Source: Cymodocea nodosa
Taxonomy: Eukaryota > Streptophyta > Magnoliopsida > Alismatales > Cymodoceaceae
NCBI GenBank assembly: GCA_036874045.1
Contig: CM072335.1
Span: 12,296,001-12,360,000 of the forward strand
DNA length: 64,000 nt
Direction: 5' to 3'
A program made the position numbers and the translations under genes. The notes below the pieces were generated by a model that saw only the letters and a list, made by a program, of their open reading frames with translations, ran no database searches and was not told where the DNA came from. Positions 33,892 through 64,000 of the stretch are shown in pieces (the first letter of the stretch is position 1; each line of letters opens with the position of its first letter).

Positions 33892-35347
33892 TGTAGGATT
33901 GAAATACTATGCAAGAGGGGGGTGAATTGTATTTTTCAACATTTTCATTTATAATCGAAACTTCAAGATTAAAACAATTTGAAACACTATTTTATTCATT
34001 TCTTTTATTCAACGTTTCAATTATAATATATAATTCAATTCTCTTTAGAAATTTTAGATACAATAATATAACAATACAATGCTTCATCTAATCAATTTCA
34101 TAATTATAAACAAAGAAAACTAAATTGCAGAATTAAAAATATTTTTCCATATTTAAGATTTTCCTTTTCTTCTTCTTTTGTAAATCTTTAGTGACAAATA
34201 TATGACATTCTCCTCTTTGCTGAAGTTGCTTCCTTTTGAGAGTTTTTCTCTTAAGAGGTGTGTCCTTGTAAGTATATTTCTTTAAGAGTGTAGGGATACT
34301 TTAATCAACGAGAATTCTGTCTTTTATAATCAATTTTCATTTCATGCATATCCTCCACGTTCATCTATGATCAATCTCCACTCTTCATGTCTTCTATTTT
34401 ACTTTCAAATTCAAATTTTGAAATACGCATATTCTGGTCCATGTTTTCCTCTCAAATTTTCTTGAATCATTTTGAATTATCAATCCTGAATCATTTGAAA
34501 AATTTCTTACAAAATAAACTTTTTTTTTCAAAATTTTTCATCAAATGTAATAATAAGATGTTGTGTTAATACTAATTAAATACATAAAATAGAATAGACT
34601 TATAACTCAATGTGTCTAATTCAACGAGTTCAACATGTGCCATACATGTGACATGCTTTGTTGGGTAAAATGATAACTCAATGAACTAACTCTATTGTGT
34701 TATTGACACTTAACGAACTAGTATATATAAATGTTAAACAATAATGTATTTATCATGAGCAAGAATAATAACTTTATAAGTTTATAACGCTAACCTAATG
34801 TGTTGCCTTAGTATACAATTTAGCAACTCAACACGTATAGTTATGTTAACTTAATGAATTAAATATGTACAACTCACGTGATACAATATAACATTCGTAA
34901 ACTTTAAATTCAATATATGCATAATACTAACTTAACAAGTTCGTTCATAAAACTTAATGTTTTATTCATTAACTCAATGAGTTCTTACGTGACCTCTTTT
35001 TAACCTTTAAGCTTATAACTCAATGAGTTCTCATGTGACCTTTTTACAAAAAGAATGCTAACACAACAAGTTGTCTAACGTACACTATACATAATATATA
35101 AATATGAAATAACAAACATATTGTACTTTATAATAAAAACACATGTTAACTTAATGTTTAGTTATATGAAAAGTTAGTATAACTTAATAACTAATTATGT
35201 AACTTAGCATAATTTCAAATCTATTATAAATAAGTATATAACATTAAACTTTTTATGTATTAATTGATGTTCTTAATTTACTTTCACAAACAACATTAAT
35301 TGATTAAATATGATTATTCACACATCATCAAAACATAATACTCAACA
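33892..35347 (-). mobile_element. L2-family LTR, 3' LTR of a minus-strand element
   Basis: A 1456-bp LTR that starts TGTTGAGTATTATG on the minus strand at 35347 and ends CCTACA at 33892. It matches the solo LTR at 57096-58726 over its length, including the AAGAGGGGGGTGAATT block near 33913. A polypurine tract lies directly upstream on the minus strand, which fixes orientation and identifies it as a 3' LTR. It contains many AACTCAAYGA motifs. Confidence 0.75.
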
Positions 35348-37400: not shown

Positions 37401-37434
37401 TTGGTACTTCAAATCTATTAGGCCTTGCTATATT

Positions 37435-37809
37435 TCATTCTTCTCTAGTGATAGGATTTCTAATCAAAATATTGGGCAATAGAATTGCATACCTTGGTTC
37501 GGTTCGATAAATAATTAATCTTTCATCTATCCCCATAATATAATCTATTCCTTCTAATATATTAGGTGGAATTTTAGTAGTTTCTTCTATATTTAAATAT
37601 TCATAACTGATTGAATTGCGATTAAATAACTTCCATAAAAATCCATCTCTAATATTAGTCATTTTTGTAGCTTGTAGTCCATGAAAATATTTTTCTCTGA
37701 CACAATCTTTAATTTCTTTTGACACACAACACAATCTGCACAGATTTTTAGCTAATAAATTACTTAGTATTTCCCTCAATGCATCTAGTGGTAATTTCAT
37801 CAATTCCAT
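37435..37809 (-). pseudogene. F-box cargo gene of element C, truncated copy
   Basis: 124 codons from MELMKLPLDALREIL, closely matching the first third of the F-box protein at 45258-46190 in element B. The N-terminal F-box is intact in pattern (LP..ALREIL..L..K.LCRLCCVSKEI). The frame stops at 37435 just after the NPITREE block, where the B copy reads NPITGEEWN, and homology ends near 37400. It is preceded on the minus strand by a hairpin-rich spacer and by the end of the displaced gag domain, the same layout as in B. It belongs to the older element C and is separated from its upstream part by the insertion of B. Confidence 0.8.
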
Positions 37810-37869
37810 CTATTGTAATTCTGTATAACATAAATAAAATTTAGCAAAGATAAAATTAACATAGCTACT

Positions 37870-38257
37870 TACATACCCTCGTGGAGTTAGGTCATAACTC
37901 AATGGACTAAGTTCATTGAGTTAAGTAATAACTAAGTTCATTGTATTAAGTAATAACTAAGTTCATTGAGTTAAGTAATAACTCTATGATATTACTAACT
38001 ATAATTAAACTTACTTTTTTTTTCTTTTTATATTTTTCTACTTACTATATCATACATAGTTACTTCAATCATACTGCTTCATTTAGTTTCCCTCTCAAAG
38101 GAGGTATCAACTTCATTAACAGTTCTATTGACAAGGTTAAATACTACTTGCATTGGCAATCCTCTAGTAGGTCTAACTTCTATTGATTACTTCTATTTAG
38201 GGGGTATATTTCTATTCATATTTTGATTTTGAATAGCAACATTTCCAAATACATGAT
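37870..38257 (-). mobile_element. element C segment downstream of the B insertion: gag end and hairpin spacer
   Basis: On the minus strand, 38257-38060 continues the gag-like sequence interrupted at 50445. The B element shows the same sequence without a break around 44890-45066. It is followed by a spacer with repeated TTGAGTTA / TAACTCAA motifs at 37985-37875. The five bases ATGAT at 38253-38257 are the left target-site duplication of element B. Confidence 0.8.
38253..38257. repeat. left target-site duplication of element B (ATGAT)
   Basis: Matches 50440-50444. Removing B and one copy restores a continuous match between element C and the gag end of element B. Confidence 0.9.
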
Positions 38258-38752
38258 TGTTTAGAATGAAAAAGTGCATATTATTAATGGTTAAATGATG
38301 GTTAATTGCATAATATTTAGCTTATCATATGAGAATTAAACCATTATGTTATAATTGCACTGTTATATGCTTTAATTGAAGAATCTACTTATTTTTGGGG
38401 AATTAATGTTAATTTAGTATATTTATGAACTGTCGGTAAGTTGCAGGCTGTGAAATTCTTAAGTATCCGAATTTTCTGATATTTTGAACAGTTATGTTTA
38501 ACATACCGAACAAATTTGAACAGTTATGTTTAACATACCGAACAAACTCGGACAATTATGTTTAAATTGCCGAACATTTATGTTTTGAGAGAATATTTTA
38601 TTATTTCCAGATGTACATGTGTCGAAACTAGAATGAATGACTTAAGTGAACTTTCGGTGAGTTATCTATAACTATTTGAAACTACAGCTGGGCATCAGAT
38701 AGTTATCCCTATAACTCTTCGAAATCTCTTTGTATTTATAAAATAGTTGAGG

Positions 38753-38760
38753 ACACGTGT
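38753..38760. promoter_or_regulatory. G-box palindrome in the L1 LTR
   Basis: ACACGTGT. The same site is present in the other L1 LTRs (near 48722 and 63474). G-boxes are bZIP/bHLH binding sites, so a role in driving the LTR promoter is plausible. Confidence 0.45.
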
Positions 38761-38887
38761 TATGTTCTAGATAAGTGACTTAAGTGGATTTTCGGTGAGT
38801 TAGCTGTAACTATCCGAAATGCATCTGAGCATCGGATAGTTAGACTTGTAACTCTCTGAAATGTTATTTTATGATTAAACTACTACT

Positions 38888-38897
38888 GACACGTGTC
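38888..38897. promoter_or_regulatory. second G-box palindrome in the L1 LTR
   Basis: GACACGTGTC, a perfect 10-bp palindrome, repeated in the 3' LTR near 48857 and, with a change, near 63338. Confidence 0.45.
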
Positions 38898-40430
38898 GAG
38901 ATCTGGTAGATTTACTTAAGTTATATATCGATGAGTTAATTGTAACTATCCAAAATGCATTTGAGCATCAGATAGTTAAGTTTATAAGTATCCGAAATGC
39001 ACCTAAGCATCGGATAGTTAAATTTATGCACGTATTTTATAGTTAAATCAATGAAGAAAGTCCGTTGAGTTATCTGTAACTCCACGGACTATATATTTTC
39101 TAATATGCCACTGTAGCGGTTGTAGAAACAGGACAGTTGGAAGGAAAAACCACGTTTGCACGTATCACGTAGGGAGAAGGAAGCATCGCCGTTGATATGA
39201 ATGAAGGAAATCCAACCGATCATTCAAGCAGAAGCAGTTACTACTGAAGAAATATAAAAGAAAAGAAGAAAAAAAGAAGAAGGATGATCGATGTGTGATC
39301 GATGGACGCCTAGTGGTGTAGAGGAGGATCGGCGTCGCAATTTTCCGAAGTATCACACGAACCATTGTTATCACCATCATCACCACCATAATCACCAACC
39401 ATCGGAGGTCTGTGAGGATACTTGCCTGATGTCGGGTCGATTCCGAGACAAACACAGTGCTTGACAACCATTGTGAGGAGTGATCACGTCGCGGGAAGGG
39501 AAGACATTTTCACCAAGCGCCGACTCATATTTCAAGAGATTGTAAAGCTTTTAGCCTTGGCTTCGGGTTGATGCCTATATGCTGAAGAGGAGATCATCTT
39601 GCAATTCTGGACTTGCGATTCTATAAGGAGAGGAGACAAAATTGTAAGTGGTTTAATTTTCAGTGGTGTAATCGCATTGCAAGTAGTGTCGGAAGTATTT
39701 ACTGTCAAGTGAGATTACTTTACATTTCACCTTTCGCTTATTTCCATGTTCACATCAAAACAAAAATACCAAAAACAATTTATCTTTGTTTGTATGTTGT
39801 ATTTGAGTGTTGTATTGTTTGTGTTGTATCGTGATTAATGTTATCTGTATCAGTTTTGTGATTATTTTATGTTAGTTTTAATTTTACAGTTTACTGAAAT
39901 TGGTTCGTACAAAAAACTTAAAGATTTTAATGGTTATTGTTTGAATCATCTGAATGTTAGTATTGCTTAATGATAAATCCAATGTTAACTAGCATTAAAA
40001 AGCTTAATTGATGTTATTTACAATTTGTGGAATCGCCCAATGGTTTGTGGAGAAACAGGCTCGTGGAGTTAACTTAAGTCCACGAGGATAGTCTATTGAG
40101 TTAGCCATAACTCAACGAACTTTGTCTGTTGAGTTAACTGTAATTCAACGGAGTGCTTATTGAATATAAATTTGAATTGTTAACAATCAAACAGTTCTTA
40201 AATTCGTTAGTAATTCCCTATGGGATCGACCTGTACTTGCACACTGATACAATAGACACTATGCACTTACAGTTAAAGTACAAATTGGAATTAATATCTA
40301 AATTGTATTAAAGGTTGTTTGTTTACTTCTAAAAGAAAGAATAGGCATAAAGATAAATTAACTAAGTAAAAATAGAAGTAACAAATCCAAGTTTTTCTAG
40401 TGTAGTGCTGGGAAAACCAAATAAGTTTTA

Positions 40431-40448
40431 TGGCACCGTTGCCGGGGA
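40431..40448 (+). promoter_or_regulatory. element B primer-binding site
   Basis: TGGCACCGTTGCCGGGGA, seven bases after the LTR. It resembles the tRNA-Asp-type primer site of Athila and Ogre-group elements with one change in the conserved run. Confidence 0.85.
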
Positions 40449-40562
40449 ATTGAATTGAATTGAGTTGAAGTGAATTGAATTGAATTGAATTAATATAAGT
40501 AACTGTTAGAGCTATTTCGTTTTAATAGTCAGAGTTGTGTGTTTTCTTTTGTAATTTAGAAT

Positions 40563-41612
40563 ATGGCATATGCTTATGCTCAAAGATTTCTGAAACCTAT
40601 AATTAGCATATGTGAATTCTGCAATTCTGAAGGACACGACATTTCTGATTATTTTAAATTGAGACGTCTACAGATTGTTAGATCCCATGAACAACAAATG
40701 AATTATCCTCAATATAATAGAGCTGAGTATGAGAATCCTATAGTTTACCCAACTGATGGTCAGTATAGAATGTGTAATATGATGAGAGACATTGAAGTTT
40801 GGGATAGCTATGATAGACTAGAGTATAGTATAGAGCAAAATCTAGACAAACTGGAATACTTTGTGTGTCAACAACAAGAAGTCAACCAGTTAAACTATAA
40901 GGAAGCATATTCAGAACTTAAAAAGGATATAATTTACGAAACTGAAAAAACCATAAAGAAAATTGATCAAAAATTGAATGCAATGAAATTAGATGATTTG
41001 GAAACAAAATTAAAAGCATTATACAAAAATGCAATGAAATTACAAGTTATGCAACAAGACAATGAAAATTATAATGTTATAAACCTGCATAACTTGCAAA
41101 ATATACAACAAACAGAAAACACTAATGTAAGAGAATTTAAAGAATGCACTTTAAAACTAAAAACAATTGAAGATCATAATCACGAAAATGATATACAAAA
41201 ACATAATGAAAGTAACGAAAATCTAGAAGATGTATGCGTAATATTAAGATCTGGAACTGATATACTACCAAGAACTCAAAATGAAAATGATATGAAGGTG
41301 GACAAGAGTAAAAATCAAAATGATAATGAAAATGTAATAGCTAAAAATCTAGAAATCACTGAAGAACAATCTGAATTTGCAATTGAAGTTAAACATGATC
41401 AAACAAATCAATTGAAAGAAAAAGAGTCTTTGAAATCAAAATCTTTAGCACCCTATCTTGAAAGATTACAACAAATAATTCTTGAAAAACAAGAAAAAAT
41501 CAGAGAAATTTTTGAAAAAGTACAAGTTAACATTCCTTTATTAGATTTATTACAGAATATGCCACCTTGTGCTAAATTTCTGAAGGATTGGTGTACTAAG
41601 AAAAGAGAGTGA
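40563..41612 (+). CDS. element B gag C-terminal part (Athila-like), truncated
   Basis: 349 codons from MAYAYAQRFLKP, about 115 nt after the primer site. Residues 18-29 form a CxxC...H zinc-knuckle-like motif (CEFCNSEGHD). The middle is highly charged and probably coiled coil (repeated KLKALYKN / KIDQKLN stretches). The end has the Athila linker VNIPLLDLLQNMPPCAKFL and stops at CTKKRE. Element A has an arginine codon (CGA) where this copy has TGA at 41610-41612, so the stop looks like a CpG transition. Beyond it the frame continues only to about 41652, where homology to A ends. The N-terminal gag domain, normally placed before this part, is at 43881-45066. Confidence 0.75.
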   Translation: MAYAYAQRFLKPIISICEFCNSEGHDISDYFKLRRLQIVRSHEQQMNYPQYNRAEYENPIVYPTDGQYRMCNMMRDIEVWDSYDRLEYSIEQNLDKLEYFVCQQQEVNQLNYKEAYSELKKDIIYETEKTIKKIDQKLNAMKLDDLETKLKALYKNAMKLQVMQQDNENYNVINLHNLQNIQQTENTNVREFKECTLKLKTIEDHNHENDIQKHNESNENLEDVCVILRSGTDILPRTQNENDMKVDKSKNQNDNENVIAKNLEITEEQSEFAIEVKHDQTNQLKEKESLKSKSLAPYLERLQQIILEKQEKIREIFEKVQVNIPLLDLLQNMPPCAKFLKDWCTKKRE

Positions 41613-41652
41613 AAAGTTCTTAGAAATGTTTTTTTAGCTGAGCAAAGTAGTT

Positions 41653-42780
41653 TCACAGATTGGTAGTCAGGAGGAAGAATAAAGAGTAGAAAATGAAGAG
41701 GCTGAAAGAAGCCATTTGGACAAAAATAATTTCACAGATTCCACTGAAGAGCAAGAAACTCTTCAACAAATTATGGAAAGAATTCAAGACAGAGTGGAGA
41801 GTTTTGCTGGCTCACCACCACAGACAGAAGCAAAAGAAAAAATTCAGGAATCTAAAGAGAATGTTCAAATGCAGCCTATGCTAGAGGAAGATCAAGTACA
41901 AACCTCTCTAGAGTAACAAAGTCACCTTCCTGACCCAACTGAAACAACAATTTTGAATGAAGTACATTTTTGTAGTCGGGAAGCTTATACCAAATACCAA
42001 GAAATAAGGGGTTACGATATTATTTACAGTAGACTAGTAAATTGGGATGAAATGCAAGAAATCAAAGATCTATTTGAATTCCAAGGTCTACTGTAATTTA
42101 TATCTCAAGAAAGAGGGCATGTAGTATATGAGAATTTAGTGCCCTGTTTCTATGCAAATTTAAGAGAAGGAGAAGGAGGATTAATTTCAAACATGGAGGA
42201 AGCTGATGTACAAATAACACTAGAGCTTCTCCACAATATATTTGGTTTAAAGAATGAAGGAATAAAAATTTTGGAAGATACAACTACAGTTGAATAGACT
42301 GAACAACAAATTAAGGATTGTTTAGCTATCAATCCTAGTGTGCCATTATTAAACAGATTGAAGCATTTAAATGGTAAAGCACACATGGAAGCAAACATTC
42401 TGATTAAGAATGCTTATCAACGACAAGGCCATGACATAGAATTAAGTCAATTTGTCAAATGGGCCACATATGTAGTTGTAAATAAGATCCAAATAAATTG
42501 GTCTGCAGTTTTTATCTCCAAGTTGAAAATAGTGAAGAAGAAATTATTTTATGGAGATTTGATTCCACTATTGATGGTGGACTGTATCGATTTCACTAAA
42601 TGGACATAAAAAAAGATCAGATCTAGAACCATTTCAGTGAAAGAATACAGGAATTTTGTAGCTGCAGAACTAGTTGTACCTTCTAGAAGAATTGCAGGAG
42701 CAGTAGAGAGGATGAATCAATTAGAGCAGCAATTAGAAAAACTCCAGAAGGAAGTAGATGAACTTAGGCATAGAGATTAA
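41653..42780 (+). pseudogene. ORFX of element B (plant-transposon-like protein), broken
   Basis: The frame can be followed from the junction at about 41655 (QIGSQEE block) through MDKNNFTDSTEEQETLQQ at 41716 to the stop at 42778-42780, with internal stops near 41914, 42095, 42297 and 42607. An acidic, Gln-rich N-terminus is followed by a conserved domain (EIKDLFEFQGLL, then LVPCFYANLREGEGG, then LELLHNIFGLKNEGI, then KAHMEANILIKNAYQ) and ends in a short coiled coil (LEQQLEKLQKEVDELR). The CFYANL-type block is a hallmark of the putative plant transposon protein family often found in gypsy-type elements; its biochemical role is unknown to me. The same protein is encoded on the minus strand in element C. 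Confidence 0.65.
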
Positions 42781-43199
42781 ATTGTATTGTTCGTCTACTT
42801 GAGTAAAATTGTATGAAATTGTATGATGTACTTGTAATGTAATTGATTCATATTAATGAATATAATTTTTCAGATGCAATTTTCATACATGTTTGGATGT
42901 GAAATGAATGAAATTTATTGAATATTATGTAATTGTGGAACTTTATGAATGAATATGTAACAGATTTACAATTTGCTGAATGACAGGATAACTGCTTAAA
43001 AATTTCTACATGTTATAAGGTAAAATGTAAATTCTGCATAACATAAAATGACCTGCAAGTTAAATCTTTATATAATGTTCAGATTTAAATGTATTTTAAT
43101 CAAAATGAGGCATTAATGACATAGATTTAACTTTATTACAGTTAGTAGAATGACAAAGAAAAAAAACAGAATAGAAAACTTACAAGAGTGAAGCTTAGA
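42781..43199. other. noncoding spacer after ORFX in element B
   Basis: AT-rich sequence with no frame. The minus-strand counterpart in element C is about 52537-52100. Confidence 0.5.
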
Positions 43200-43204
43200 A
43201 GTTG

Positions 43205-43450
43205 CCAAGTGTTAACTCAACGAAGTAAGTCCGTTGAGTTAACCGTAACTCCACGAGGTCAGTAATATAATATAAGGTCACTCCGTTGAGTTATCTATAA
43301 CGCAACGAAGTTAGTTCGTGGAGTTAGCAACAATAACCAACTATGTTCTGTTGAGTAATCTGTAAGTCAACGAGGTTAGTTCGTGGATTAAGCAGAACGA
43401 TTATTCTTTTAACCACGAACGAAACTTCGTCGATTTAGCGGTTACCAAAA
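43205..43450. repeat. hairpin-motif array between ORFX and gag domain, element B
   Basis: At least six half-sites of the TTGAGTTA / TAACTCAA or TAACTCCACGA type occur in both orientations. Pairs such as CGTTGAGTTA-(4 nt)-TAACTCCACG can fold into short hairpins. The equivalent array in element C is at 51835-52095. Confidence 0.7.
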
Positions 43451-43880
43451 TTTAAAATTAGTAGTGGTACACATACCCATAAAAACAGGAACCACGATGC
43501 ACGTTGCAAGACACATTCTTGCAACGACATTTATTCACTTTATGGATATGCAGTATATATATGAAACAGAATGTTATTTACGAGTTACCAGAACTTTTAA
43601 AAGAAAGGAGAAGGCGTTGGAGGAACTGGAAGGAGAAGCAGCTGATTCAACTTCATCCGATAACAAATATTTATAGAATGGAAAGCTTCAAACTAGTATG
43701 TAATTAATCTTCTGCTATTTATTTATGAGCACATGGACTCGTTCTCTAAGTACTAAACGATTAGTAAGAACACCTACCTAGTAATTTTCATTGCAGAGGA
43801 GTATTGAAAAATTTTCTGAACTGAACTTTAACGAAATTCTTTAGGGTGTAGCTAACCTTTCTTTAAAAGAGAACGTAGAG

Positions 43881-45066
43881 ATGGCTACTCCAGTAGAAAA
43901 ACCATTAGGAGAAATTCTGTATCTTGAATTAGTTGATGAACCTTCATGTATTCGATTGCCAAACTTTGAGGGAGATAGGTTTGAACTGAAATCTAATTAT
44001 ATTAGTCAATTGCCACATTTTCATGGATTAGAAAGAGATGATGCCTATTATTTCCTTAGAGAATTTAACGTAGTTTGTCAAATGATGAAAATGCCGAACA
44101 TGAGTATAGATGCTATTAAACTTAAATATATCCCTTTTTCTTTAAAAGATAGCTAAGAGATGGTTATATACTCTATCGCCTAATTCAATTTCTACATGGA
44201 CTGAATTTTGGTCTGTTTTTCTGAAAAAATATTATCCAACACATCAAACGATTAAAAAGAAGAAAGAAATATTAATGTGTAGCCAAAAACAGGGTGAATC
44301 ATTCTGGAAATATTTTGAAAGATTTAAAGATTTATTGACTCAATGTCCATATCATGCAATGAGTAAAGCACAATTAATAGGTATAATTTATGAAGGCATA
44401 GATGTTTCAAGAAAATCTTTATTAGAATCTACTTGTCAAAATGGATTTTTAAAATTATGTCGTGAAGAAGCATGGGCATATTTAGAAAATTTTGCAAAAA
44501 TAACTGCATAGTGGGAAAATTCGGTTGAAGCTATTGCAGATAAAAGAATATTGCCAAGAGGAATGCATGAAATATATTCCAATACTATGCTTGAGGTGAA
44601 ATTAAATGAATTAACAAAGAAAATAGAAGAGTTATCATTAAATCAAAAGCTAGCAGAAAAGAATGCAAACATAAATGACTTAGATATTATTTATGCTAGA
44701 AACCATAGAGATAACTTGGGAAATTCTTATCATCCTAATTGGAGAAATCACCCGTATTTATCTTGGAGAAACAACAATTTCTAGGGAGGAGAAAATATAA
44801 ATGAGAAGATCATAAGTTATGAAGTATTAATTGAACAAGGAGTTAGAATAGAGAAATTAGAAAAGATAATCCAACAAGTAAATAATCGTATAGAATTTAT
44901 ATTTGGAAATGCTGCAAATCAAAATCAGAATAGAAATATATCACTTAGATAGAAGGAACCAATGGAAGTTAGACCTATTAGAGGATTGCCAATACAAGCT
45001 ATACCTAATCTTGTCAATAGAACGGTTAATGAAATTGATACCTCTTCTAGGAGGGCAGCTGAATGA
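43881..45066 (+). pseudogene. element B gag N-terminal (retrotransposon gag) domain, displaced and frameshifted
   Basis: The frame begins MATPVEKPLG at 43881 and ends at 45064-45066. The pattern is that of the Ty3/gypsy gag capsid-like domain: LPHFHGLERDDAYYFLREF, then IKLKYIPFSLKD, then RWLYTLSPNSISTW, then FLKKYYPTHQTIKKKKEI, then ESFWKYFERFKDLLTQCPYH. A 2-nt deletion near 44150 (seen against element C) shifts the frame at the SLKD block, and stops lie at 44509 and 44782. The position is odd: in ordinary elements this domain precedes the zinc-knuckle part, whereas here it lies 2.3 kb downstream of it and after ORFX. Confidence 0.8.
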
Positions 45067-45129
45067 AGCAGCATATCTGAAGCAACTATCTGTATGTATA
45101 TATGTTTTTTTTATTTTTATTAGTATCGT

Positions 45130-45205
45130 AGAGTTATTTTTTTTTAACTCAACGAACTTAGTCTATTGAGTTATGCCTTAACTCCACGAGGGTGTGCAGT
45201 AGTTA
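45130..45205. repeat. hairpin-motif spacer between gag domain and F-box gene
   Basis: AACTCAACGAACT, then TTGAGTTATGCC, then TTAACTCCACGAGG. The equivalent motifs occur at 37875-37985 in element C. Confidence 0.65.
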
Positions 45206-45257
45206 TGTTAATTTTTGTCTCTGCTAAATTTTTGTTTTTATTTTACAGAATCGACAA

Positions 45258-46190
45258 ATGAAATTAATGCAATTACCGTTGGATGCACTAAGGGAAGTAC
45301 TAAGTAACTTGTCAGCTAAAGATCTGTGTAGGTTGTGTTGTGTATCAAAGGAAATTAAAGATTGTATTGAAGAAAAATATTTTCAGGGACTACAAGCTGC
45401 AAAAATGACTAAGATTAGAGATGGATTCATATGGAGGTCATTTAATCGTAGTTCAAATACCCATGAATATCTGGCTATGGAAGAAACTACTAGAATTCCA
45501 CCCAATGCATTAGAAGGAATAAATCATATTATGGGGATAGATGAAGGATTAATCATATACAAGACGAGACCAAGGTTTGCAAGTTTATTATTACTTGATA
45601 TTTTGATAAGAAATCCTATAACAGGAGAAGAATGGAATATAGGAAGACCTAATAGATTTGAAGCACCAATTGTAAATTGTGGGTCAGCTTTAATATTTTC
45701 TGATAAAAATTCTACAATTCCTGAAAAATTATATTATTGTAGACCTATAGGAAATTGGGGTGAAGATTTACGCTTAAGTGTGTATAATTTTCTAAACAGA
45801 TCTTGGAATGAAAATATTATGATATATCTAGGACAGAAATCATTAATTAACCAAACACATGTCATACTTGATGGATATATCTATTTAGTCACAAAGATAT
45901 CAATAGCATATATATCTGATTTATACATAGTGAGCATAGACAATTATGATGAATATATAGAAATTTTACCTATACCGAGTGAAATAGCTAAACCACCATC
46001 TACAGAATTTAATGAAATTCAAATAGGAATGTGGTATAATGAAGAAGATGATCCTACTTTATGTTTTATAAGATGGTGGGATGAACTTATGAAATTTCAA
46101 ATATGGATTATGGAAGACATGAATGAATGGAAGTGGGAAGAGGAGTATATTGAAATAGATGTAGAAATAGAAACTACTACATTACCTTAG
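45258..46190 (+). CDS. F-box protein carried as cargo by element B
   Basis: 310 codons from MKLMQLPLDALREVL. Residues 5-45 match the F-box pattern (LP..ALREVLSNLSAKDLCRLCCVSKEI), the segment that binds SKP1 in SCF ubiquitin ligases. The rest has features of an F-box-associated domain: NPITGEEWN near residue 120 and IGMWYNEEDDPTLCFIRW then FQIWIMEDMNEWKWEEEY near 255-300. The stop at 46188-46190 is followed in the same frame by 68 more codons with plausible domain sequence (PKKFVWTDTFIPFV), ending at 46397, so the original protein was probably about 379 aa. Element C carries a truncated copy in the same position. Expression and substrate are unknown. It is either a captured host gene that is still partly open or a recently broken one. 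Confidence 0.85.
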   Translation: MKLMQLPLDALREVLSNLSAKDLCRLCCVSKEIKDCIEEKYFQGLQAAKMTKIRDGFIWRSFNRSSNTHEYLAMEETTRIPPNALEGINHIMGIDEGLIIYKTRPRFASLLLLDILIRNPITGEEWNIGRPNRFEAPIVNCGSALIFSDKNSTIPEKLYYCRPIGNWGEDLRLSVYNFLNRSWNENIMIYLGQKSLINQTHVILDGYIYLVTKISIAYISDLYIVSIDNYDEYIEILPIPSEIAKPPSTEFNEIQIGMWYNEEDDPTLCFIRWWDELMKFQIWIMEDMNEWKWEEEYIEIDVEIETTTLP

Positions 46191-46397
46191 AACCAAAAAG
46201 GATCCCTTTCTGCATTACATATCATTAATGGTAATACACTCGTATTTGGAATTTATAATATATTGCATGTTTACAAATTAAGAAGGAACAAGAACTACAT
46301 TAAAACAGAATTAATAGCAAGAAGAACTATGCCTAAAAAGTTTGTTTGGACTGATACATTTATTCCATTTGTTTCTACTTTTCAATCATGTTCTTAA
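46191..46397 (+). pseudogene. in-frame C-terminal extension of the F-box gene
   Basis: Continues the frame of 45258-46190 after one TAG, with no further stop until TAA at 46395-46397. The residues (LHIINGNTLVFGIYNILHVY, then FVWTDTFIPFVSTF) look like the end of an F-box-associated domain rather than random sequence. Confidence 0.6.
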
Positions 46398-48148
46398 GCT
46401 GTGATTTTGTGTGTTTAACGTTGTGTATTATGCATTTATTTTTAGAAAAAAAAAGAAATTTTGAAGTTTTCATGTTCATTTTATAAAAAAAAACAAACAA
46501 AACAAAATATCAATCCAGTTTGTTGGTATCTGTTCTGGAAAACCAACTGGCTTGCTTGTGAGCCACCAAAGGCATAGGAGCCTAGGTTCCACACAAGACA
46601 CTGAATTATCAATATCTGTTAAATGTTATTTTGTTATATATTATGTGTTTATCTGGGAATGAAAAGTTTTTCAAAATCAAAAGTCGGAATATGCAGAAGG
46701 AGATACAAATGGAACAAGGTATGTAACCAATTACTTATCCTAAATTTTAAATCAAACAAAACTTTATTCATTCCTGCTACAATTACTGTATTTATTGTCA
46801 AATCTTTTACGTTGAGGACAATGCAAAATGTAGGTATGGGGGGGAGGTAATTAAAGTAACAGCCATGTAAGTTTGTTAATTAAAGGAATTAAAATAGTAC
46901 TGCAAAGTTTTGAGGAAATTGAAAATTTTTATGAACTTGCTGTAACTATCCGATAATTGAGACTGTAAAATCTTTATAAACTGCTTGAATGTTATATTTA
47001 GAAGGCTATAGAAGATGCTATAGAATTTATTATTTATGCAAATCTAAATATAATATCTTATGATTTTTCTGAATTTCATGAGTTTAATAGTTTTACGATT
47101 TTAAAATGGAATCAGAATGCTTAATGAAAAATTAGTAAATTATCTGAAGTCCTGAAGGAGCTGAGATGTGAATTCTAGATTAAATGAAACACATATGATG
47201 AAAGATACATTTACTTTGGCTGATTGAACTTTTAGAATGATTTATGTGTAGATCTTATTAAACTGCAGATAAAGTATGAGCTTATTGTTATGAATTCATA
47301 TTTTTAGTAAATGATAGAAGCAGGATTATATGAGATTGGTGTTTTACTACATCTGTATTAATGAAATATGTGCATATACAATATGTGATTAATGCTTTGT
47401 TTTGTGTGTGCATTTTATTTTAAAGAAAAAAAGCAAAAAGAAAAAAAAAGAAAAAGGAAAAAAACTTTGAAAGTTTATTGACTTGTTTGATCATGAGCCT
47501 TTTGTACTTGAGCAGATAGGTATGTAAGGATTGTTAACCTGAAAAAAGACTCTTAAAATCTGGCAACCTAAGATCCTGATCAGATCTGGGATTATTGATT
47601 GAAAGCTCGTTACATGGGTACATTAGAAAGCTCTTATATGATTCAAGCTTGTCAAATTAACTTTTTTTTAAAAAAAAAAAACATATACTGTTCTGAAAAG
47701 ATACAAGTGTTTTGTGAAATACAGATATCTTATGAATCGAGTATATTTTCTGTTATCTAGAATTGCTGAAATATGAATCTGGAATTGACTTTTGAAGTTG
47801 TTTAATGGAAATACAAATCTTTATTCTACTTGTCTTAATCAGATTGAATTGGATTGTACTTTGATTCGTATGTTGAAATTTCTTCTAGAAAATCTTATTG
47901 GAAAATTCAGGATGACAGATGATGAAAAGAAGAACAAACGATAATATAATTAACACCTATATGAAGATGATATACTTTGTATGTAATTTACATATATTCC
48001 AAATATCTTTGCAGGTTGATTACTGAAACATACAGAATATATTTTTATGCTAAGCAGAAGAAAAAACAAAAGGGGAAGAATTAATTCTAGCACTTTTTGA
48101 AAGACTAATTAATTAGATCTTAGTTTGCTAAGGGACTAGCAAAATTTA
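46398..48148 (+). other. 3' noncoding region of element B
   Basis: No protein domain is seen. At 46811-46848 the run GTTGAGGACAATGC followed by TAGGTATGGGGGGGAGG resembles the conserved motif with an extra polypurine tract found near the end of pol in Athila/Tat-type elements. If so, the F-box gene occupies the place where pol would end. Poly-A runs occur near 47440 and 47672. Confidence 0.5.
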
Positions 48149-48161
48149 GATATGGGGGAAG
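48149..48161 (+). promoter_or_regulatory. element B polypurine tract
   Basis: GATATGGGGGAAG directly before the 3' LTR start at 48162. The same tract appears in reverse at 63977-63989. Confidence 0.85.
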
Positions 48162-50439
48162 TGTTTAGAATGAAAAAGTGCATATTATTAATGGTTAAAT
48201 GATGGTTAATTGCATAATATTTAGCTTATCATATGAGAATTAAGCCATTATGTTATAATTACACTGTTATATGCTTTAATTGAAGAATCTGCTTAATTTT
48301 GGGGAATTAATGTTAATTTAGTACGTTTATGAAATGTCGGTAAGTTGCAGGCTGTGAAATTCTTAAGTATCTGAATTTTCTAATATTTCGGATAGTTATG
48401 TTTAATATACCGAACAAACTCGGACAGTTATGTTTAACATACTGAACAAATTCAGACAGTTATGTTTAACATACCGAAAAAACTCAGACAGTTATGTTTA
48501 ACAGACCGACTATGTATCGGATAGTTATGTTTAAATTATCGAATAGTTATGTTTTGAGAGAATATTTTATTATTTCCAGATGTACATGTGTCGAAACCAG
48601 AATGAATGACTTAAGTGAACTTTTGGTGAGTTATCTTTAACTATTCGAAATTGCAGTTGGGCATCGGATAGTTATCCCTGTAACTCTCCGAAATCTCTTT
48701 TTATTTATAAAATAGTTGAGGACACGTGTTATGTTCTAGATAAGTGACTTAAGTGGATTTTCGGTGAGTTAGCTGTAACTATCCGAAATGCATCTGAGCA
48801 TCGGATAGTTAGACTTGTAACTCTCTGAAATGTTATTTTATGATTAAACTACTACTGACACGTGTCGAGATCTGGTAGATTTACTTAAGTTATATATCGA
48901 TGAGTTAATTGTAACTATCCAAAATGCATTTGAGCATCCGATAGTTAAGTTTATAAGTATCCGAAATGCACCTAAGCATCGGATAGTTAAATTTATGCAC
49001 GTATTTTATAGTTAAATCAATGAAGAAAGTCCGTTGAGTTATCTGTAACTCCACGGACTATATATTTTCTAATATGCCACTGTAGCGGTTGTAGAAACAG
49101 GACAGTTGGAAGGAAAAACCACGTTTGCACGTATCACGTGAGAATTCAATCGCGTAGGGAGAAGGAAGCATCGCCGTTGATATGAATGAAGGAAATCCAA
49201 TCGATCATTCAAGCAGAAGCAGTTACTACTGAAGAAATATAAAAGAAAAGAAGAAAAAAAGAAGAAGGGTGATCGATGTGTGATCGATGGACGGCCAGTG
49301 GTGTAGAGGAGGATCGGCATCGCAATTTTCTGAAGTATCACACCAACCATCGTTATCACCATCATCACCACCATAATCACCAACCACCGGAGGTCTGTGA
49401 AGATACTTGCCTGATGTCGGGTCGATTCCGTGCCAAACACAGTGCTTGACAATCACTGTGAGGAGTGATCACGTCGCGGGAAGGGAAGACATTTTCACCA
49501 AGCGCCGACTCATATTTCAAGAGATCGTAAAGCTTTTAGCCTTGGCTTCGGGTTGATGCTTGTATGCTGAAGAGGAGATCATCTTGCAATTCTAGACTTG
49601 TGATTCTATAGGGAGAGGAGACAAAATTGTAAGTGGTTTAATTTTCAGTGGTGTAATCGCGTTGCAAGTAGTGTCGGAAGTATTTACTATTAAGTGAGAT
49701 TACTTTACATTTCACCTTTTGCCCATTTCCATGTTCACATCAAAACAAAAATACTAAAAACAATTTATCTTTGTTTGTATGTTGTATTTGAGTGTTGTAT
49801 TGTTTGTGTTGTATCGTGATTAATGTTATCTGTATCAGTTTTGTGATTGTTTTATGTTAGTTTTAATTTTACAGTTTACTGAAATTGGTTCGTACAAAAA
49901 ACTTAAAGATTTTAATGGTTACTGTTTGAATCATCTGAATGTTAGTATTGCTTAATGATAAATCCAATGTTAACTAGCATTAAAAAGCTTAATTGATGTT
50001 ATTTACAATCTGTGGAATCGCCCAATGGTTGGCCGAATTCCTTTTTAAATAGCAGTATTATAAAGAAGAAACGGGCTCGTGGAGTTAACTTAAGTCCATG
50101 AGGATAGTCTGTTGAGTTAGCCATAACTCAACAAACTTTGTCCGTTGAGTTAACTGTAATTCAACGAAGTGCTTATTGAATATAAATTTGAATTGTTAAC
50201 AATCAAACAGTTCTTAAATTCGTTAGTAATTCCCTATGGGATCGACCTGTACTTACACACTGATACAATAGACACTATGCACTTGCAGTTAAAGTACAAA
50301 TTGGAATTAATATCTAAATTGTATTAAAGGTTGTTTGTTTACTTCTAAAAGAAAGAATAGGCATAAAGATAAATTAACTAAGTAAAAACAGAAGTAACAA
50401 ATCCAAGTTTTTCTATTGTAGTGCTGGGAAAACCAAACA
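48162..50439 (+). repeat. element B 3' LTR (L1 family)
   Basis: A 2278-bp LTR, near-identical to 38258-40423 over long stretches, starting TGTTTAGAATG and ending AACCAAACA. It retains three short segments missing from the 5' LTR. Confidence 0.9.
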
Positions 50440-50444
50440 ATGAT
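50440..50444. repeat. right target-site duplication of element B (ATGAT)
   Basis: Pairs with 38253-38257. Confidence 0.9.
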
Positions 50445-51459
50445 CTAGATGATTGTTTAATTGTTGAATTATCTTTTCTAACTTCTCTATTCTAGATCCT
50501 TGTTCAATTAATGCTTCATAACTTATATTTTTGTCATTTATATTTTCTCCTCCCTAGAAGTTATTGTTTCTCCAAGAAAGATTCAGATGATATCTCCAAT
50601 TAAGGTTATAAGAATTTTCAAAGTTATCTTTCTGGTTTCTAGCATAAATAATATCTAAGTCATTAATATTTGCATTCTTTTCTACTAGTTTTTGATTTAA
50701 TGATAACTCCTCAATTTTCTTTGTTAACTCAGTTAATTTAACTTCAATCATAGTGCTTGAATCTATTTTATGCATTCTCCTTGACAATATTCTTTTATCT
50801 GTAATAGCTTCAATCGAGTTTTCCTATTGAGCAATTCTTTTTGCAAAGTTTTCTAAGTATGCCCATGCTTCTTCACTACACAGTTTTAAAAATCCATTCT
50901 AACAAGTAGATTCTAATAAAGATTTAGTTGAAACATCTATGCTTTCATAAATTATACCTATTAATTGTGCTTTACTCATTGCATGATGTAGGCATTGAGT
51001 TAGTAAATTTTTAAATCATTCAAAATATTTCCAAAATGATTCTCCCTACTTTTGGCTACACATTAATATTTCCTTTTTCTTTTTAATCATTTGATGTGTT
51101 GGATAATATTTTTCTAGAAAAACAGAGCAAAATTCAATCCATGTAGAAATTGAATCAAGCGACAGAGTATATAACCATCTCTTAGTTGTGTCTTTTAAAG
51201 CAAAAGGAATATATCTAAGTTTAATAGCATCAATACTCATGTTCGACATTTTCATCATTTGACAAACTTCGTTAAATTCTCTAAGGAAATAATAGGCATA
51301 TTCTCTTTTTAATCCATGAAAGTGTTGTAATTAACTAATATAATTAGATTTCAATTCAAACCTATCTCCCTTAAAGTTTGGCAATCGAATACATGAATGT
51401 TCATCAACTAATACAAGATATAGAATTTCCCTTAATGGTTTTTCTATTGAAGCAGTCAT
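50445..51459 (-). pseudogene. element C gag N-terminal domain, broken and split by element B
   Basis: From an ATG at 51459 (MTASIEKPL) the minus-strand frame follows the B copy at 43881-45066 block by block (MMKMSNMSIDAIKLRYIPFA, then RWLYTLSLDSISTW, then FLEKYYPTHQMIKKKKEI). It keeps the frame at the site where B has a 2-nt deletion but has its own stops, for example after YIS near 51330 and after CSQK at 51046. It ends at the element B insertion and resumes at 38257. Confidence 0.8.
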
Positions 51460-51834
51460 ATCTTCGTTCTCCTTTAAAGAAAGGTTAGCTACACCCCTAA
51501 GGATTTCGTTAAAGTCTAATTCAAAAAATATTTCTATACACCTCTATGTTGAATAATCCTGTGTAAGTGTTCTTACTAATCGTTTAGTACTAGGAGAACG
51601 AGTCCATGTGCTCATAAACTCTTAACATAAAGTAAAATAGTAGAAGATTAATTACATACCAGTCTGATACTTTGTTTTCAATAAATAGTTGTTGACGGAT
51701 GAAGTTGAATCAACTACTTCTCCTTCTAGTTCCCCAATGAATTTTCTTTTCTTTCCTCAAGTGTTGGTAACTAGTAAATAACATTCTGTTCTATATTTAT
51801 AATGCACGATATTTCATTCGTGGCTAAAAGAATA

Positions 51835-52095
51835 ACCATTCAGCTAAATCCACAAACTAACCTCGTTGAGTTACAAATAACTCAATGGACTAACATCAGT
51901 TATTATTTCTAACTTAACGAACTAGTCTTGTTGAGTTACAGCTAACTCAACGGACTAGCTTCGTCGCCTATTTGCTAACTCCACGGACTAACTTCGTTGA
52001 GTTACAGATAACTCAACGGAGTGACCATATATTTTATTATTGACCTCATGGAGTTAAGGTTAACTCCACGAACTTCGTTGAGTTAACACTTAGCA
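51835..52095. repeat. hairpin-motif array between ORFX and gag domain, element C
   Basis: Dense pairs such as CGTTGAGTTACAGATAACTCAACG (near 51992-52020) form near-perfect stems with 4-6 nt loops. It corresponds in position to 43205-43450 of element B. Confidence 0.75.
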
Positions 52096-52537
52096 AATTT
52101 TTCTAAAACTTATTCCTCATATTAACTTCAATATATATATATTCTCTTGCATTTTATCAACTTAAATAAAGTTAAATACATTTCATTAATGCAGTGTTCT
52201 AATTTAAACTCCTTTAAATCTAAACATTATATGCATATTTAACTTATAGTTCATTTCCTGTTATGTAGAATTTACATTTTACTTTTTGTATGCAGATATA
52301 TTCAAACATTATCCAATCATCATGCATTTAACCATGCCATTAATAAAATTGTAAAATAGTCTTGCAAATCTTTAAACAACTATATAATATTCATCTTCAA
52401 TACAGTTCTCAATTAAATCATTCATTCACAATTACACAAATTCAAAAACATCATGTTGTTCAAACATTCATATATATAAATGTTTACATTTACATATAAT
52501 CAGACATTTTTTAGTATAAGTAGATGAACAATACATT

Positions 52538-53561
52538 TTAATCTTTCTTCCTAAGTTCATCTACTTCCTTATGGAGCTTTTCTAATTATTGTTCTAATTG
52601 ATTTATATTCTCAATAGCTCCTATAATGTCTTTAGAAGGTCCAGTAATCGAAATAGCAGCTACAACATTATAATTTTTATATTCCTTCACTAAAATGGCT
52701 CTAGATCTTATCCTTTTGGATGTCCATTTCGTGAAGTCAATATTGTCCTCCATTAATACTGGTATCAAATCTCCATAAAATAGTTTCTTCTTTGCAGACT
52801 TTATCTTTGACTGGAAGACTTGACACTAGTTAACTTGATTTTTATTTAACAAATTGACTCAGCTCAATGTCATCGCCATACCTCTAATAGATAGTTTTAA
52901 CTAAAATGTTTGCCACCATGTGTGCTTTCCCATTTAAATACTTCAATCTATTCAGTAATGACACACTAGGGTTGATGGCCAAACATTACTTGATTGCTTG
53001 TTTTGTCCATTCAGTTGTAGTTGTATTTTCTAGGATTTCAATGCCATCATTTTTCAGTCCAAAAATATTGTGGAGAAGCTCTAGTGTTATCTATACATTA
53101 ACTTCTTCCATGTTTGGAATTAAATTTTCTTTTTCCTCCCTCAAATTTGCATAAAAGTAGGGCATTAAATTTTCATATACTACATGCCCTTTTTGTTGAG
53201 AAATAAAGTTCAGTAGGCCTTGGAATTCGAATAATTCCTTAATTTCCTCCATTCTAGTCCAATCAACTGGCCTATTGTAAATAACATCATACTCCTTTAT
53301 CTCTTGATACTTGTTGTATGCTTCCTAACTCCAAAAGTGAACATTTAAAATAGTTGCTTCAGACGGGTCAAGAATTTGGATTTGTTGCTCTAGAGGGGTT
53401 TGTTCTTGAATTCCTTCCTCAAAATGCTGAACTTGTGTTTGTTGGAAATGATCCGGAGATTCTTGCAATTCAGTTCCTCTTTCTGTCTGTGGTGGAGAGT
53501 CGATAGAACTCTCCACTCTTTTTTCTTATACTCTTTCAATTAATTGCTAAAGAGTCTCTCC
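52538..53561 (-). pseudogene. element C ORFX, C-terminal part, broken
   Basis: Minus-strand frame homologous to 41716-42780, from the ETLQQLIERV block next to the Copia-3 insertion to the stop at 52540-52538 (ELRKKD end). It contains the EIKELFEFQGLLNFISQQ, YFYANLREEKENL and LELLHNIFGLKNDGI blocks. A segment present in B around 42440-42480 is rearranged or missing near 52830. Several stops are present. The N-terminal part lies at 61194-61765 on the other side of Copia-3. Confidence 0.75.
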
Positions 53562-54530
53562 TGTTACAGGTAAAACCGATCGTTCAGTCAACTTTCTATG
53601 ACACGATTATGAAACACTCACCTCTTAACTCACCGAAATTGGAAGTGAAGAGTAAGAGAAAGAAATAACACAATGAAGATACAGGATTTACGTGGTTTAG
53701 CAACAGCCTATGTCCACGGAGAGTTAATGGTTCTTCTATGAGCTTCGGTACAAACAATCGCATAGTTTTACAATATTATAAAGGTTTATATACTACCCAA
53801 CTTAGGGTTAATAAATCTTTAATTACATTCAAACCATTATAGTAGAGAAATAATGCTTCAGAGAAGGGACTCTCAATTTCAAAGCATTATCTTCCTAACT
53901 TTCTAAAAACTGCAACACTTCAGATGGTTATAGACTTAACTATCCGAAGAAATTCTTCTTTCTTCATTTGTTGTAATGGGCGATACTATAGTAGGTTAAC
54001 TATCTGAAGAGATTCGGTATTTCGGATAGTTACTGACTTAACTGTCCGAAAATCCACTTACTTCTCTTTCTCTGTCCTTTCAAAATGGTCTACCGTTAAC
54101 TCTCCGAAAATTGTATGTCTTTCGGATAATTACTGTCTTAACTATTTGAAAACTCACTTAAGTGTCTCTTCAGTTATTTTGGAAGGTTCTGCCATTAACC
54201 TTCCGAAAGCTTATGATTTTCAGATAATTACTACTTAACTATCCAAAGATCCACTTAAGTTACTACTTTTCGGATACTTGGCTTCTTAATTGTCTGATCG
54301 TATACATAAGTGTCCTTTAAGTTTCCAGATGGTTACAACTAGTAACCCTTCGAAATCTTTTGACTTTCCGATAGTTAGCTCAAAGCCTCCGACTAAAACT
54401 TTATTTTTGGATACTTAGGCTTAATAACCTATCGAAAATATAAATCTACCGAATACTTAATGTTAACAAGCTTTCGACTGAACCTGGACTTCTTATGGCA
54501 TACTCTACACCTGTACTACCTGTCCTAACA
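53562..54530 (-). repeat. Copia-3 3' LTR
   Basis: 969 bp, direct copy of 60223-61193. It is rich in TAACTATCCGAA-type motifs in both orientations, similar to those in the L1 LTRs. Confidence 0.9.
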
Positions 54531-61193: not shown

Positions 61194-61765
61194 TCTCCCT
61201 CTTCAGTGGAATTTGTCAAGTCATTTCCTTTTTGTTTAGTATGTACTTATTCAACTTCTTCTATTTTGTCTTCCTCTTGACTACCAATCTGCATTGTCAC
61301 TGTTCTTTCTAATTCTATGGTAGATTGAGATGGAGTCATGGGCACAATATATTCTACCCTATTTGTTTATTCTACTTGTATAGGCTGTAGACTAATTTCA
61401 ACCTATTTTTCTTCTTTTCTTTGCTCTTGCTGCTACTACTCCTACTCCTCCTCAGATTCGGATGGCAGATCTACAAAAATGGTCTTTTTAGGCCCTGCTA
61501 ATAGTATAGGCTCTGATTTAATTTCTACTTCTACAGTCTCAAACACTATCTCCGTTCCTTTCCTTCTTCTAAATAACTGTGTCTAATCTTCCTCTTCTTC
61601 TTTTTTTAACTCTAAGTTAACAAAAATAAGCTCTACAGGTACTAGCTCTTCCTGTTTCATTGTTTCTATAATTACTAGTCTCGAAGGACCAACTTTAGTT
61701 TCTGTTGCAGCTAGTGATCTAACTGCTTCTTGATGTCTTTCCACCTTAATTTTATATTAGGCCAT
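61194..61765 (-). pseudogene. element C ORFX, N-terminal part
   Basis: Minus-strand frame from an ATG that directly abuts the L1 LTR at 61766, with a stop at codon 3 and others later. Blocks such as VGPSRLVIIETMKQEELVPV and the QIGSQEED segment link it to the L2 ORFX and to B at about 41660. It is acidic and Glu-rich. It is split from its C-terminal part by Copia-3. No primer site lies between it and the LTR. Confidence 0.6.
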
Positions 61766-63976
61766 TGTTTGGGTTTTCCCAACACTACACTAGAAAAACT
61801 TGGATTTATTACTTCTATTTTTACTTAGTTAATTTATCTTTATGCTTACTCTCTATTTTAGAAGTAAACAAACAACCTTTAATATAATTTAGATATTAAT
61901 TCCAATTTGTACTTTAACTGCAAGTGCACAGTGTCTATTGTATCAGTGTGCAAGTACAGGTCGATCCTATAGGGAATTGCTGAAGAACTTGAGAACTGTT
62001 CGTTTGTTAACAATCAAATTTATATATTCAATAAGCTCTCCGTTGACTTACAGTTAACTCAACGGACTAAGTTCGTTGAGTTATGGTTAATTCAATAGAC
62101 TAACCTCGTGAACTTAAGTTAACTCCACGAGCCTATCTCTTCTTTATAATACTGCTATTTACAAAGGAATTCAGCCAACCATTGGGCGATTCTATAGATT
62201 GTAAATAACATCAATTAAGCTCTTTAATGTTAGTTAACATTGGATTTATCATTAAGCAATACTAATATTCAGATAATTCAAACAGTAACCATTAAAATCT
62301 TTAAGTCTTTTGAACGAACTAATTTCAGTAAACTGTAAAACTAAAATAAACATAAAACAATCACAACACTGACAAAGATAACATTAATCACGATACAACA
62401 CAAACAATATAACACTCAAATACAACATACAAACATAGATAAATTATTTTTGGTATTTTTGTTTTAATATGAACATGGAAATGGGTGAAAGGTGAAATGT
62501 AAAGTAATCTCACTTGACAGTAAATACTTCCAACACTACTTGCAACGCAATTACACCACTGAAAATTAAACCACTTACAATTCTGTCTCCTCTCCCTATA
62601 GAATTGCAAGTCCAGAATTGCAAGATGATCTCCTCTTCAGCATGCAGGCATCAACCCGAAGCCAAGGCTAAAAGCTTTGCAATCTCTTGAAATATGAGTC
62701 GGCGCTTGGTGAAAATGGCTTCCCTTCCCATGACGCGATCACTCCTCACAGTGGTTGTCAAGTATTGTGTTTGGCTCGGAATCGACCCGACATCAGGCAA
62801 GTATCCTCACAGACCTCCGATGGTTGGTGATGATGGTGGTGATGATGGTGATGATGATGGTTGGTGTGGTACTTCAGAGAATTGCGACGTTGATCCTCCT
62901 CTGCACACACTGTCCGCCCATCGATCACACACCCTTTCTTTTTTTTTCTTCTTTTCTTTTATATTTCTTCAATAGTAACTGCTTCTACTTGAATGGTCGG
63001 TTGGATTTCCTTCATTCGTATCAACGGCGATGCTTTCTTCTCCCTGCATGATTAAATTCCTGTGTGATACATGAAAACGTGGTTTTTCTCTTCTAACTGT
63101 CTGTTCCTGCAACCGCTACAGTGGCATATTAGAAAATATATAGTTCGTGGAGTTACAGATAACTCAACGGACTTTCTTCGTTGATTTAACTATAAAAAGA
63201 CGTGTATAAACTTAACTATCCGATGCTCAGATGCATTTCAGATACCTATAAACTTAACTATCCGATGCTTAGATGCATTTCGGATAATTACAGATAACTC
63301 ATCGATATATAACTTAAGTAAATCTACCAGATCTCAACACGTGTCAGCAGTAGTTTAATCATAAAATAACATTTCAGAGAGTTACAGGTCTAACTCTCCG
63401 ATGCTCAGATGCATTTCGGATAGTTACAGCTAACTCATTGAAAATCCACTTAAGTCACTTTCCCAGAACATGACACGTGTCCTCAGCTATTTTATAAATA
63501 AAAAGAGATTTCGGAGAGTTACAGGGATAACTATCCAATGCCCAGGTGCAATTTCGGATAGTTATAGATAACTCATCGAAAGTTCACTTAAGTCATTCAT
63601 TATGGTTTCGACACGTGTACTTCAGGAAATAATAAAATATTCTCTTAAAACATAACTGTTCGGCAATTTAAACATAACTATCTAATACATATTCGGTCTA
63701 TTAAACATAACTGTCTGAATTTGTTCGGTATGTTAAACATAACTGTCTGAATTATTAGAAAATTCGGATACTTAAGAATTTCACAACTTGCAACTTACCG
63801 ATAGTTCATAAATGTACTAAATTAACATTAATTCCCCCAAATTAAGTAGATTCTTCAATTAAAGCATATAACAGTGCAATTATAACATAATGGCTTAATT
63901 CTTATATGATAAGCTAAATATTATGCAATTAACCATCATTTAACCGTTAATAATATACACTTTTTCATTCTAAACA
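61766..63976 (-). repeat. L1-family LTR (3' LTR of an element continuing beyond the window)
   Basis: 2211 bp homologous to the element B LTRs on the opposite strand: it begins TGTTTAGAATG (minus) at 63976 and ends CCCAAACA at 61766. The bases to its right are the family polypurine tract, which marks it as a 3' LTR. No primer site follows on the other side. Motif arrays of TAACTATCCGA and TTGAGTTA types are conserved. Confidence 0.85.
62694..62975 (+). other. conserved open frame antisense to the L1 LTR
   Basis: 93 codons (MSRRLVKMASLP...) running opposite to retrotransposon transcription. Related frames lie at 665-396 and near 49516-49226 and 39535-39165. A middle segment with GIDPTSGKYPHRPPMVGD is recognisable in all four LTRs. 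The copy in the element B 3' LTR has TGA where this one has CGA. Whether it is ever translated is unknown. Confidence 0.3.
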
Positions 63977-64000
63977 CTTCCCCCATACCTAAATTTTGCT
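63977..64000 (-). promoter_or_regulatory. polypurine tract and internal edge of an L1 element beyond the window (element D)
   Basis: On the minus strand, TTTAGGTATGGGGGAAG leads directly into the LTR start at 63976, matching the tract of element B at 48149-48161. The element body lies to the right of the window. Confidence 0.8.

Follow-up and report, generated by a model that had tools for sequence, protein, structure and literature searches.

An F-box gene that appears to belong to a family of LTR retrotransposons in Cymodocea nodosa

The window, by which we mean the whole stretch of 64,000 nucleotides of Cymodocea nodosa DNA analysed here (assembly GCA_036874045.1, contig CM072335.1, positions 12,296,001 to 12,360,000, forward strand), is plant DNA: it contains a host gene with DCB, HUS and Sec7 domains, and its retroelement proteins match plant records. 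The host gene (minus strand; domain matches at 28227-29273 and 14402-14890) has the domains of BIG-type ARF guanine exchange factors, and to its right lies a nest of retroelements. The central one, L1 (plus strand), is inserted inside an older relative on the minus strand, C, directly behind the gag of the latter. C is further interrupted by a copia element (53562-61203, minus strand) with a copia gag (PF14223) and LTRs of about 980 bp that are 90% identical. Fragments at 33912-35345, 7-148 and 4042-4145 are about 71-78% identical to part of the interior of this copia element (57116-58724). Another relative, E, is inserted in C at 61769-64000 (minus strand, LTR to 63976), with its remainder outside the window. 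We had considered this segment as the 5' LTR of C; the polypurine tract in front of its LTR (61769-63976) identifies it instead as the 3' LTR of E. A further member of the family, element A, lies on the plus strand from about 158 to at least 3333; its LTR is related, and it has an ORF1 and a protease-like frame, after which it is cut off. Dotted through the LTRs and spacers of the family (43211-43258, 45144-45191, 40062-40150 and others) is a short motif, in part self-complementary, around ACTCAACGAA...TTGAGTTA; it is also found outside the family, at 34674 and 58028-58104.

Self-comparison and reading of the ends delimit L1 as a complete LTR element at 38258-50439. The 5' LTR (38258..40423) matches the 3' LTR (48162..50439), the same five bases, ATGAT, flank the element on the left (38253..38257) and on the right (50440..50444), a primer binding site-like sequence, TGGCACCGTTGCCGGGGA, is present at 40431..40448, and the polypurine tract ATGGGGGAAG (48152..48161) adjoins the 3' LTR; an identical tract precedes the LTR of E at 63976. 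The primer binding site resembles the 3' end of a tRNA that we take to be tRNA-Asp. L1 is thus an LTR retrotransposon by its two LTRs, target duplication, primer binding site and polypurine tract. A sequence-only reading of this DNA had placed an F-box frame between the gag and the 3' tail of such an element, and all of these landmarks bear it out. The two LTRs differ with a p-distance of 3.65% (K2P 0.038 over 2164 sites), which at a rate of 1.3e-8 changes per site and year gives L1 an age of about 1.5 million years.

The interior of L1, all on the plus strand, begins with ORF1 (40560..41612), which combines a degenerate zinc-knuckle-like start, judged by eye and matched by no Pfam zinc-knuckle model, with a gag/protease linker and has homologues in element A and among the gag/protease proteins of plants. 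It is followed by the broken remnant of ORF2 (41656..42780), homologous to C, a capsid-type gag ORF (Retrotrans_gag, PF03732; 43881..44784) that is interrupted by a frameshift (near 44146) and a stop (44509), a spacer (44785..45257), the F-box gene (45258..46397) and a 3' noncoding tail (46398..48151). The tail contains no ORF of at least 80 amino acids and has no second copy within the window, except for 24 bases around the polypurine tract.

The ORF1 and protease frame of element A has 46 plant and metagenome relatives at 30-47% identity, mostly recorded as uncharacterized, hypothetical or gag-asp_proteas, which by their motifs we take to be Athila-type proteins. They also cover the protease-like frame of element A, for which the Pfam Asp_protease_2 model alone gives only E 0.014. 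The homology of ORF1 of L1 to element A ends at 41652, before the protease, and the matches of the 46 relatives to ORF1 of L1 likewise stop there; their matches to L1 are confined to 41235-44766, and none begins between 41652 and 43500. L1 therefore does not carry gag, protease, RT, RNase H and integrase together as an autonomous element would, a verdict for which the chief grounds are that the protease is missing and that too little room is left, since only some of the relatives extend into RT. No RT of the L1/C family was identified in the window. As L1 has no recognisable pol, it must have moved with enzymes from its relatives.

The F-box frame of L1 is 379 codons long and is interrupted by one stop codon only, at 46188. 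Its product matches PF00646 over residues 4-41 (E 1.7e-10, 40.8 bits, cut-off 20.5) and hence contains an F-box domain. The frame includes a stop-free run of 320 codons, as against a longest run of 186 codons in 500 dinucleotide shuffles of the L1 interior. The C-terminal half is FBA-like: TIGR01640 (F_box_assoc_1) matches residues 171-334 with E 2.5e-6 and 27 bits, under its curated cut-off of 37.9, and FBA_1 gives a weak match (E 0.033, 14.5 bits, cut-off 21.1). In this arrangement of an N-terminal F-box and an FBA-like C-terminal half the protein may resemble the FBA-type plant F-box proteins, but no relative of it was found at E<=10 in the protein database: there was none at E<=1e-3 among 849 candidates and none at E<=10 among 5156 candidates retrieved with a two-row alignment as query, although the word filter of the search may still hide distant relatives. 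Such an absence is surprising for a plant F-box protein. The control query, ORF1 and protease of element A, returned 46 relatives at E<=1e-3 out of 1628 candidates, the best at 6.7e-70 and many of them from named plants, which shows that plants are present in the database. In viral_contigs no relative was found for the F-box protein, the element A ORF or gag. Among solved structures the best E values for the F-box protein, 0.34 and 0.47 (bacterial chaperones) and 0.09 with the alignment, were taken as chance.

A second F-box copy lies in the older element. C can be followed on the minus strand from 61768-61204, across the copia interruption, through 53561-50440 and, across L1, through 38251-37401, where homology ends. 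The first of these segments (61204..61768) is the upstream part of its ORF2, split off by the nested copia element; the second (50440..53561) holds ORF2 and the capsid gag, in the order seen in L1 and with stops of its own in gag; the third consists of the gag tail and spacer (37810..38251), joined to 50444 before L1 was inserted, and the F-box copy (37401..37809). The latter retains the first 136 codons with one stop, at 37437, the remainder being missing; it matches PF00646 with E 3.5e-9 and is 74% identical to the L1 protein (tblastn, 137 positions). The sequence-only reading had noticed this copy, with gag upstream, in the slot equivalent to that of L1, and the alignment upholds and extends it to 37809-37401: gag tail, spacer and F-box of C (38251-37401) are colinear with L1 44900-45669, and the correspondence includes the ATG and, just before it, an ACAG splice-acceptor-like end of the spacer (AG ending at 45248 in L1). 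With the homology of C ending at 37401, the comparison of the slot is limited to its 5' side. The F-box is present in both of the copies whose slot falls in the window, A and E being cut off before it.

The divergence of the two copies bears on when the gene arrived. At fourfold sites L1 and C differ at 6/26 positions in the F-box, 7/58 in gag and 16/56 in ORF2, and the noncoding neighbours show a K2P of 0.20-0.33. The F-box thus shares the divergence history of its surroundings, as one capture predicts, and since the junction and spacer also align, a single capture of the F-box gene is the likeliest origin. An arrival of the gene in the element ahead of the multiplication of the copies, as the earlier reading held, is accordingly supported by its presence in two of two slot-bearing copies, the alignable upstream junction and the matching fourfold and noncoding divergence; the converse possibility raised with it, that both elements had hit one and the same host F-box gene, fails on the shared junction and divergence.

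The earlier reading also proposed a Ka/Ks comparison of the cargo copies, and this reveals a depletion of amino-acid changes over 133 codons. We compared the differences with a permutation null that keeps the numbers of each kind of base change and randomises their positions (5000 shuffles). Between L1 and C the F-box shows 36.5 nonsynonymous differences against 51.8 expected, and none of the 5000 shuffles was as low. Relative to the null the N/S ratio is 0.37 in the F-box, 0.43 in gag (0/5000; the count takes in some 36 codons that follow the stop at 44782 shared with C) and 0.49 in ORF2 (0/5000), that is, the depletion is about the same in all three; for ORF1 of L1 against A it is 0.65 (48/5000). 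The control frames gave 1.49, 0.85 and 0.82 in the LTR and 1.01, 1.13 and 0.99 in the spacer. A maximum-likelihood model with kappa, which together with the permutation supersedes an NG86 omega that ignores transition bias, puts omega of the F-box at 0.136 (LRT p 4e-10; 0.05-0.25 in a bootstrap of 100), compared with 1.6 at p 0.18 for one wrong frame and 2.8 at p 0.01 for the other. The value is model-dependent, as dN over the fourfold-site distance is about 0.45. The controls are imperfectly neutral, with one LTR frame at 1.49 (4968/5000 nulls at or below) and one wrong frame at omega 2.8, but these deviations are upwards, opposite to the F-box signal. The F-box contains 1 stop where 2.8 are expected, which is no significant depletion (933/5000 as low), and the differences by codon position (22, 15 and 31 at positions 1-3) form a weak pattern by themselves. 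Taken together, these results make it clear that the F-box gene was under selection during the history of the copies, in direction if not in strength, for the part that two copies can address, the 136 of 379 codons covered by C, i.e. the first third of the protein. Both copies decayed after insertion, so the measured constraint probably understates that of the active phase. Both the purifying selection and the displacement of the capsid gag go beyond what had been noted from the sequence before.

The position of this gag is itself unusual. In L1 some 2.3 kb separate the gag/protease linker from the capsid gag, which lies downstream of it and 3' of ORF2, and in C (51475-50444, minus strand) it is likewise 3' of ORF2, so that the order ORF2-gag-F-box is common to both. 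In three of the 46 relatives (P0010, P0023 and P0035) a single protein holds the capsid, followed by the linker and the protease. The matches of these capsid parts fall at 43941-44766 in L1 and at 51393-50467 in C, and those of the linker parts at 41451-41642 in L1. The remaining 43 relatives, of which many may be fragments, have no capsid match. ORF1 of element A runs on into the protease and leaves no room for a capsid in front; like that of L1 it opens, by eye, with a degenerate zinc-knuckle-like stretch, and the best relative, P0001, which comes from a metagenome, starts with what looks by eye like a regular knuckle. The gag of L1 probably ends at 44782, because this stop is shared with C. 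We had entertained an end at 45064 and dropped it: the stops at 44782, 44950 and 45064 are all common to L1 and C, the stop at 44509 being L1's own, and the stretch behind gag, 44902-45066, shows no coding constraint (N/S ratio to null 1.43). In front of the capsid gag a candidate TATA box and 5' UTR intron (43554..43796, plus strand; GT at 43696, AG ending at 43796) are conserved in C, and this TATA-like box and GT...AG pair hint that capsid and F-box may form a 3' unit of their own in transcription or splicing. A fusion of gag and F-box by splicing was also considered and discarded, as joining the apparent donor and acceptor, read by eye, runs into a stop.

We take the family of L1 and C to be probably related to the Athila lineage of plant Ty3/gypsy elements. 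It resembles Athila in its 5-bp TSD, tRNA-Asp-like primer binding site, long LTRs and further sense ORF, and differs from it in a capsid gag that stands 3' of ORF2 instead of before the protease, in the F-box gene and, in the case of L1, in having no recognisable pol. TR-GAG elements are non-autonomous LTR elements with gag only; L1 is like them in having LTRs, primer binding site, polypurine tract and gag without recognisable pol, but it adds the start of ORF1, ORF2 and the F-box gene, which places it outside that class. Nor does it follow the canonical Ty3/gypsy order GAG-PROT-RT-RH-INT (as given in the available text of PMC6317226), since its capsid gag is not in front of the protease. In having a 3' sense ORF in both slot-bearing copies, constrained like the core genes, L1 and C recall the plant LTR elements whose extra sense ORFs stand between pol and the 3' LTR (aORF-3S, eORF-3'F), e.g. 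those with env-like ORFs, but unlike the reviewed aORF/eORF elements their extra ORF encodes an F-box protein. The word 'F-box' is absent from the main text of a review of extra ORFs (PMC7264820) and from the main texts of PMC13317346, PMC11963269, PMC6317226 and PMC3726574. The closest published likeness is a flax copia element that carries an F-box protein between its LTRs, as L1 does (PMC5142383). It differs in that it is a copia element whose RNase H is close to the 3' LTR; the available text presents one insertion, described as a transduplication, and neither a selection test nor a second copy in the same slot. Apart from the flax case, the titles and abstract openings of the papers listed, among which subscription journals are mostly uncovered and single mentions are possible, name no LTR element family that has retained an F-box gene as one of its ORFs.

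We consider it rather probable that L1 and C represent an Athila-related family that gained the F-box gene once, before it spread, and kept it because the protein helps the element, being expressed with the capsid gag and serving as an SCF adaptor against a host protein. The gene would have been acquired ahead of the spread of the copies and, along with the capsid gag, would be expressed from the 3' part of the element through a spliced or internally started RNA. As the F-box domain suggests, the protein would bind SKP1 and recruit host SKP1 and cullin into an SCF ubiquitin ligase, its C-terminal domain would pick the target, and the host protein so marked for destruction would most plausibly be a factor that limits the element. 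The benefit would most likely be the element's own, since the protein was under selection while in the lineage of the element.

Two known systems indicate what such a target might be. The P0 protein of poleroviruses is an F-box silencing suppressor that promotes degradation of AGO1, according to the available text of PMC11371168; P0 and the L1 protein are each a genetic parasite's own F-box protein, a likeness by analogy only. The VANC proteins of Arabidopsis VANDAL elements are anti-silencing proteins and, by analogy only, are like the proposed L1 F-box protein as products of an accessory plant-TE gene directed against silencing, but unlike it they are bound to DNA motifs in their targets (available text of PMC5735166). 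By these analogies a host silencing factor would be the most attractive target, and a disarming of host silencing in the manner of P0 is a plausible conjecture; the turnover of the element's own proteins, host translation and the cell cycle may also provide targets. VANC is not known to be an F-box protein. We advance more tentatively, as something that may well be wrong, the larger proposal that gag in this family was split and reordered, with a nucleocapsid-like knuckle, linker and pol first and, in a separate 3' block, the capsid together with an element-owned F-box protein that would set the ubiquitin machinery of the host against a factor for silencing or restriction, after the fashion of P0.

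Retention for the benefit of the element has to be weighed against other histories of the gene. It is unlikely that the F-box is a passive passenger, captured once from the host and copied without use, so that the selection signal would date from its life in the host. Captured genes are frequent in plant LTR elements, with 672 in rice and 1343 in sorghum in the available text of PMC3726574, the flax element has an F-box protein (PMC5142383, in part), and both visible F-box copies are broken; the depletion, however, was measured on differences that arose after the split, when both elements already had the gene behind the same junction. Improbable also is a service to the host, in which a domesticated F-box gene and the element copies would exchange sequence and so be kept alike. 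F-box genes do duplicate by retroposition, and an F-box 'LTR-gene' is described for Thlaspi arvense in the available text of PMC8764390, but the frame of L1 sits between gag and the 3' tail of a complete element, with an upstream structure that is matched in a second element, and no relative of its product was found among the database proteins, plants included. About as improbable is it that the copies captured paralogous host F-box genes independently, with selection acting on each gene in the host: the maximum-likelihood synonymous distance of the F-box (0.93) does exceed that of gag (0.34), but it is probably inflated by the codon-frequency correction, the spacer can be aligned between the copies, as can the acceptor-like stretch ahead of the ATG, and the fourfold differences, 6/26, match the noncoding neighbours. 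That a chance frame acquired an accidental F-box likeness, for which nothing beyond the AT-rich sequence speaks, has a negligible probability and is ruled out by the PF00646 match at E 1.7e-10, a stop-free run above that of all 500 shuffles and codon-structured substitutions.

Two diverged copies behind one junction, with selection at the level of the protein, thus leave us with a retrotransposon that appears to own a ubiquitin-ligase adaptor. In genome annotation such elements could be misread as a host F-box gene next to a stray gag. The displaced capsid gag calls into question the assumption of a fixed gag order in plant Ty3/gypsy elements, and the F-box-bearing family of L1 and C offers a concrete, testable candidate for the action of a retroelement against host control.
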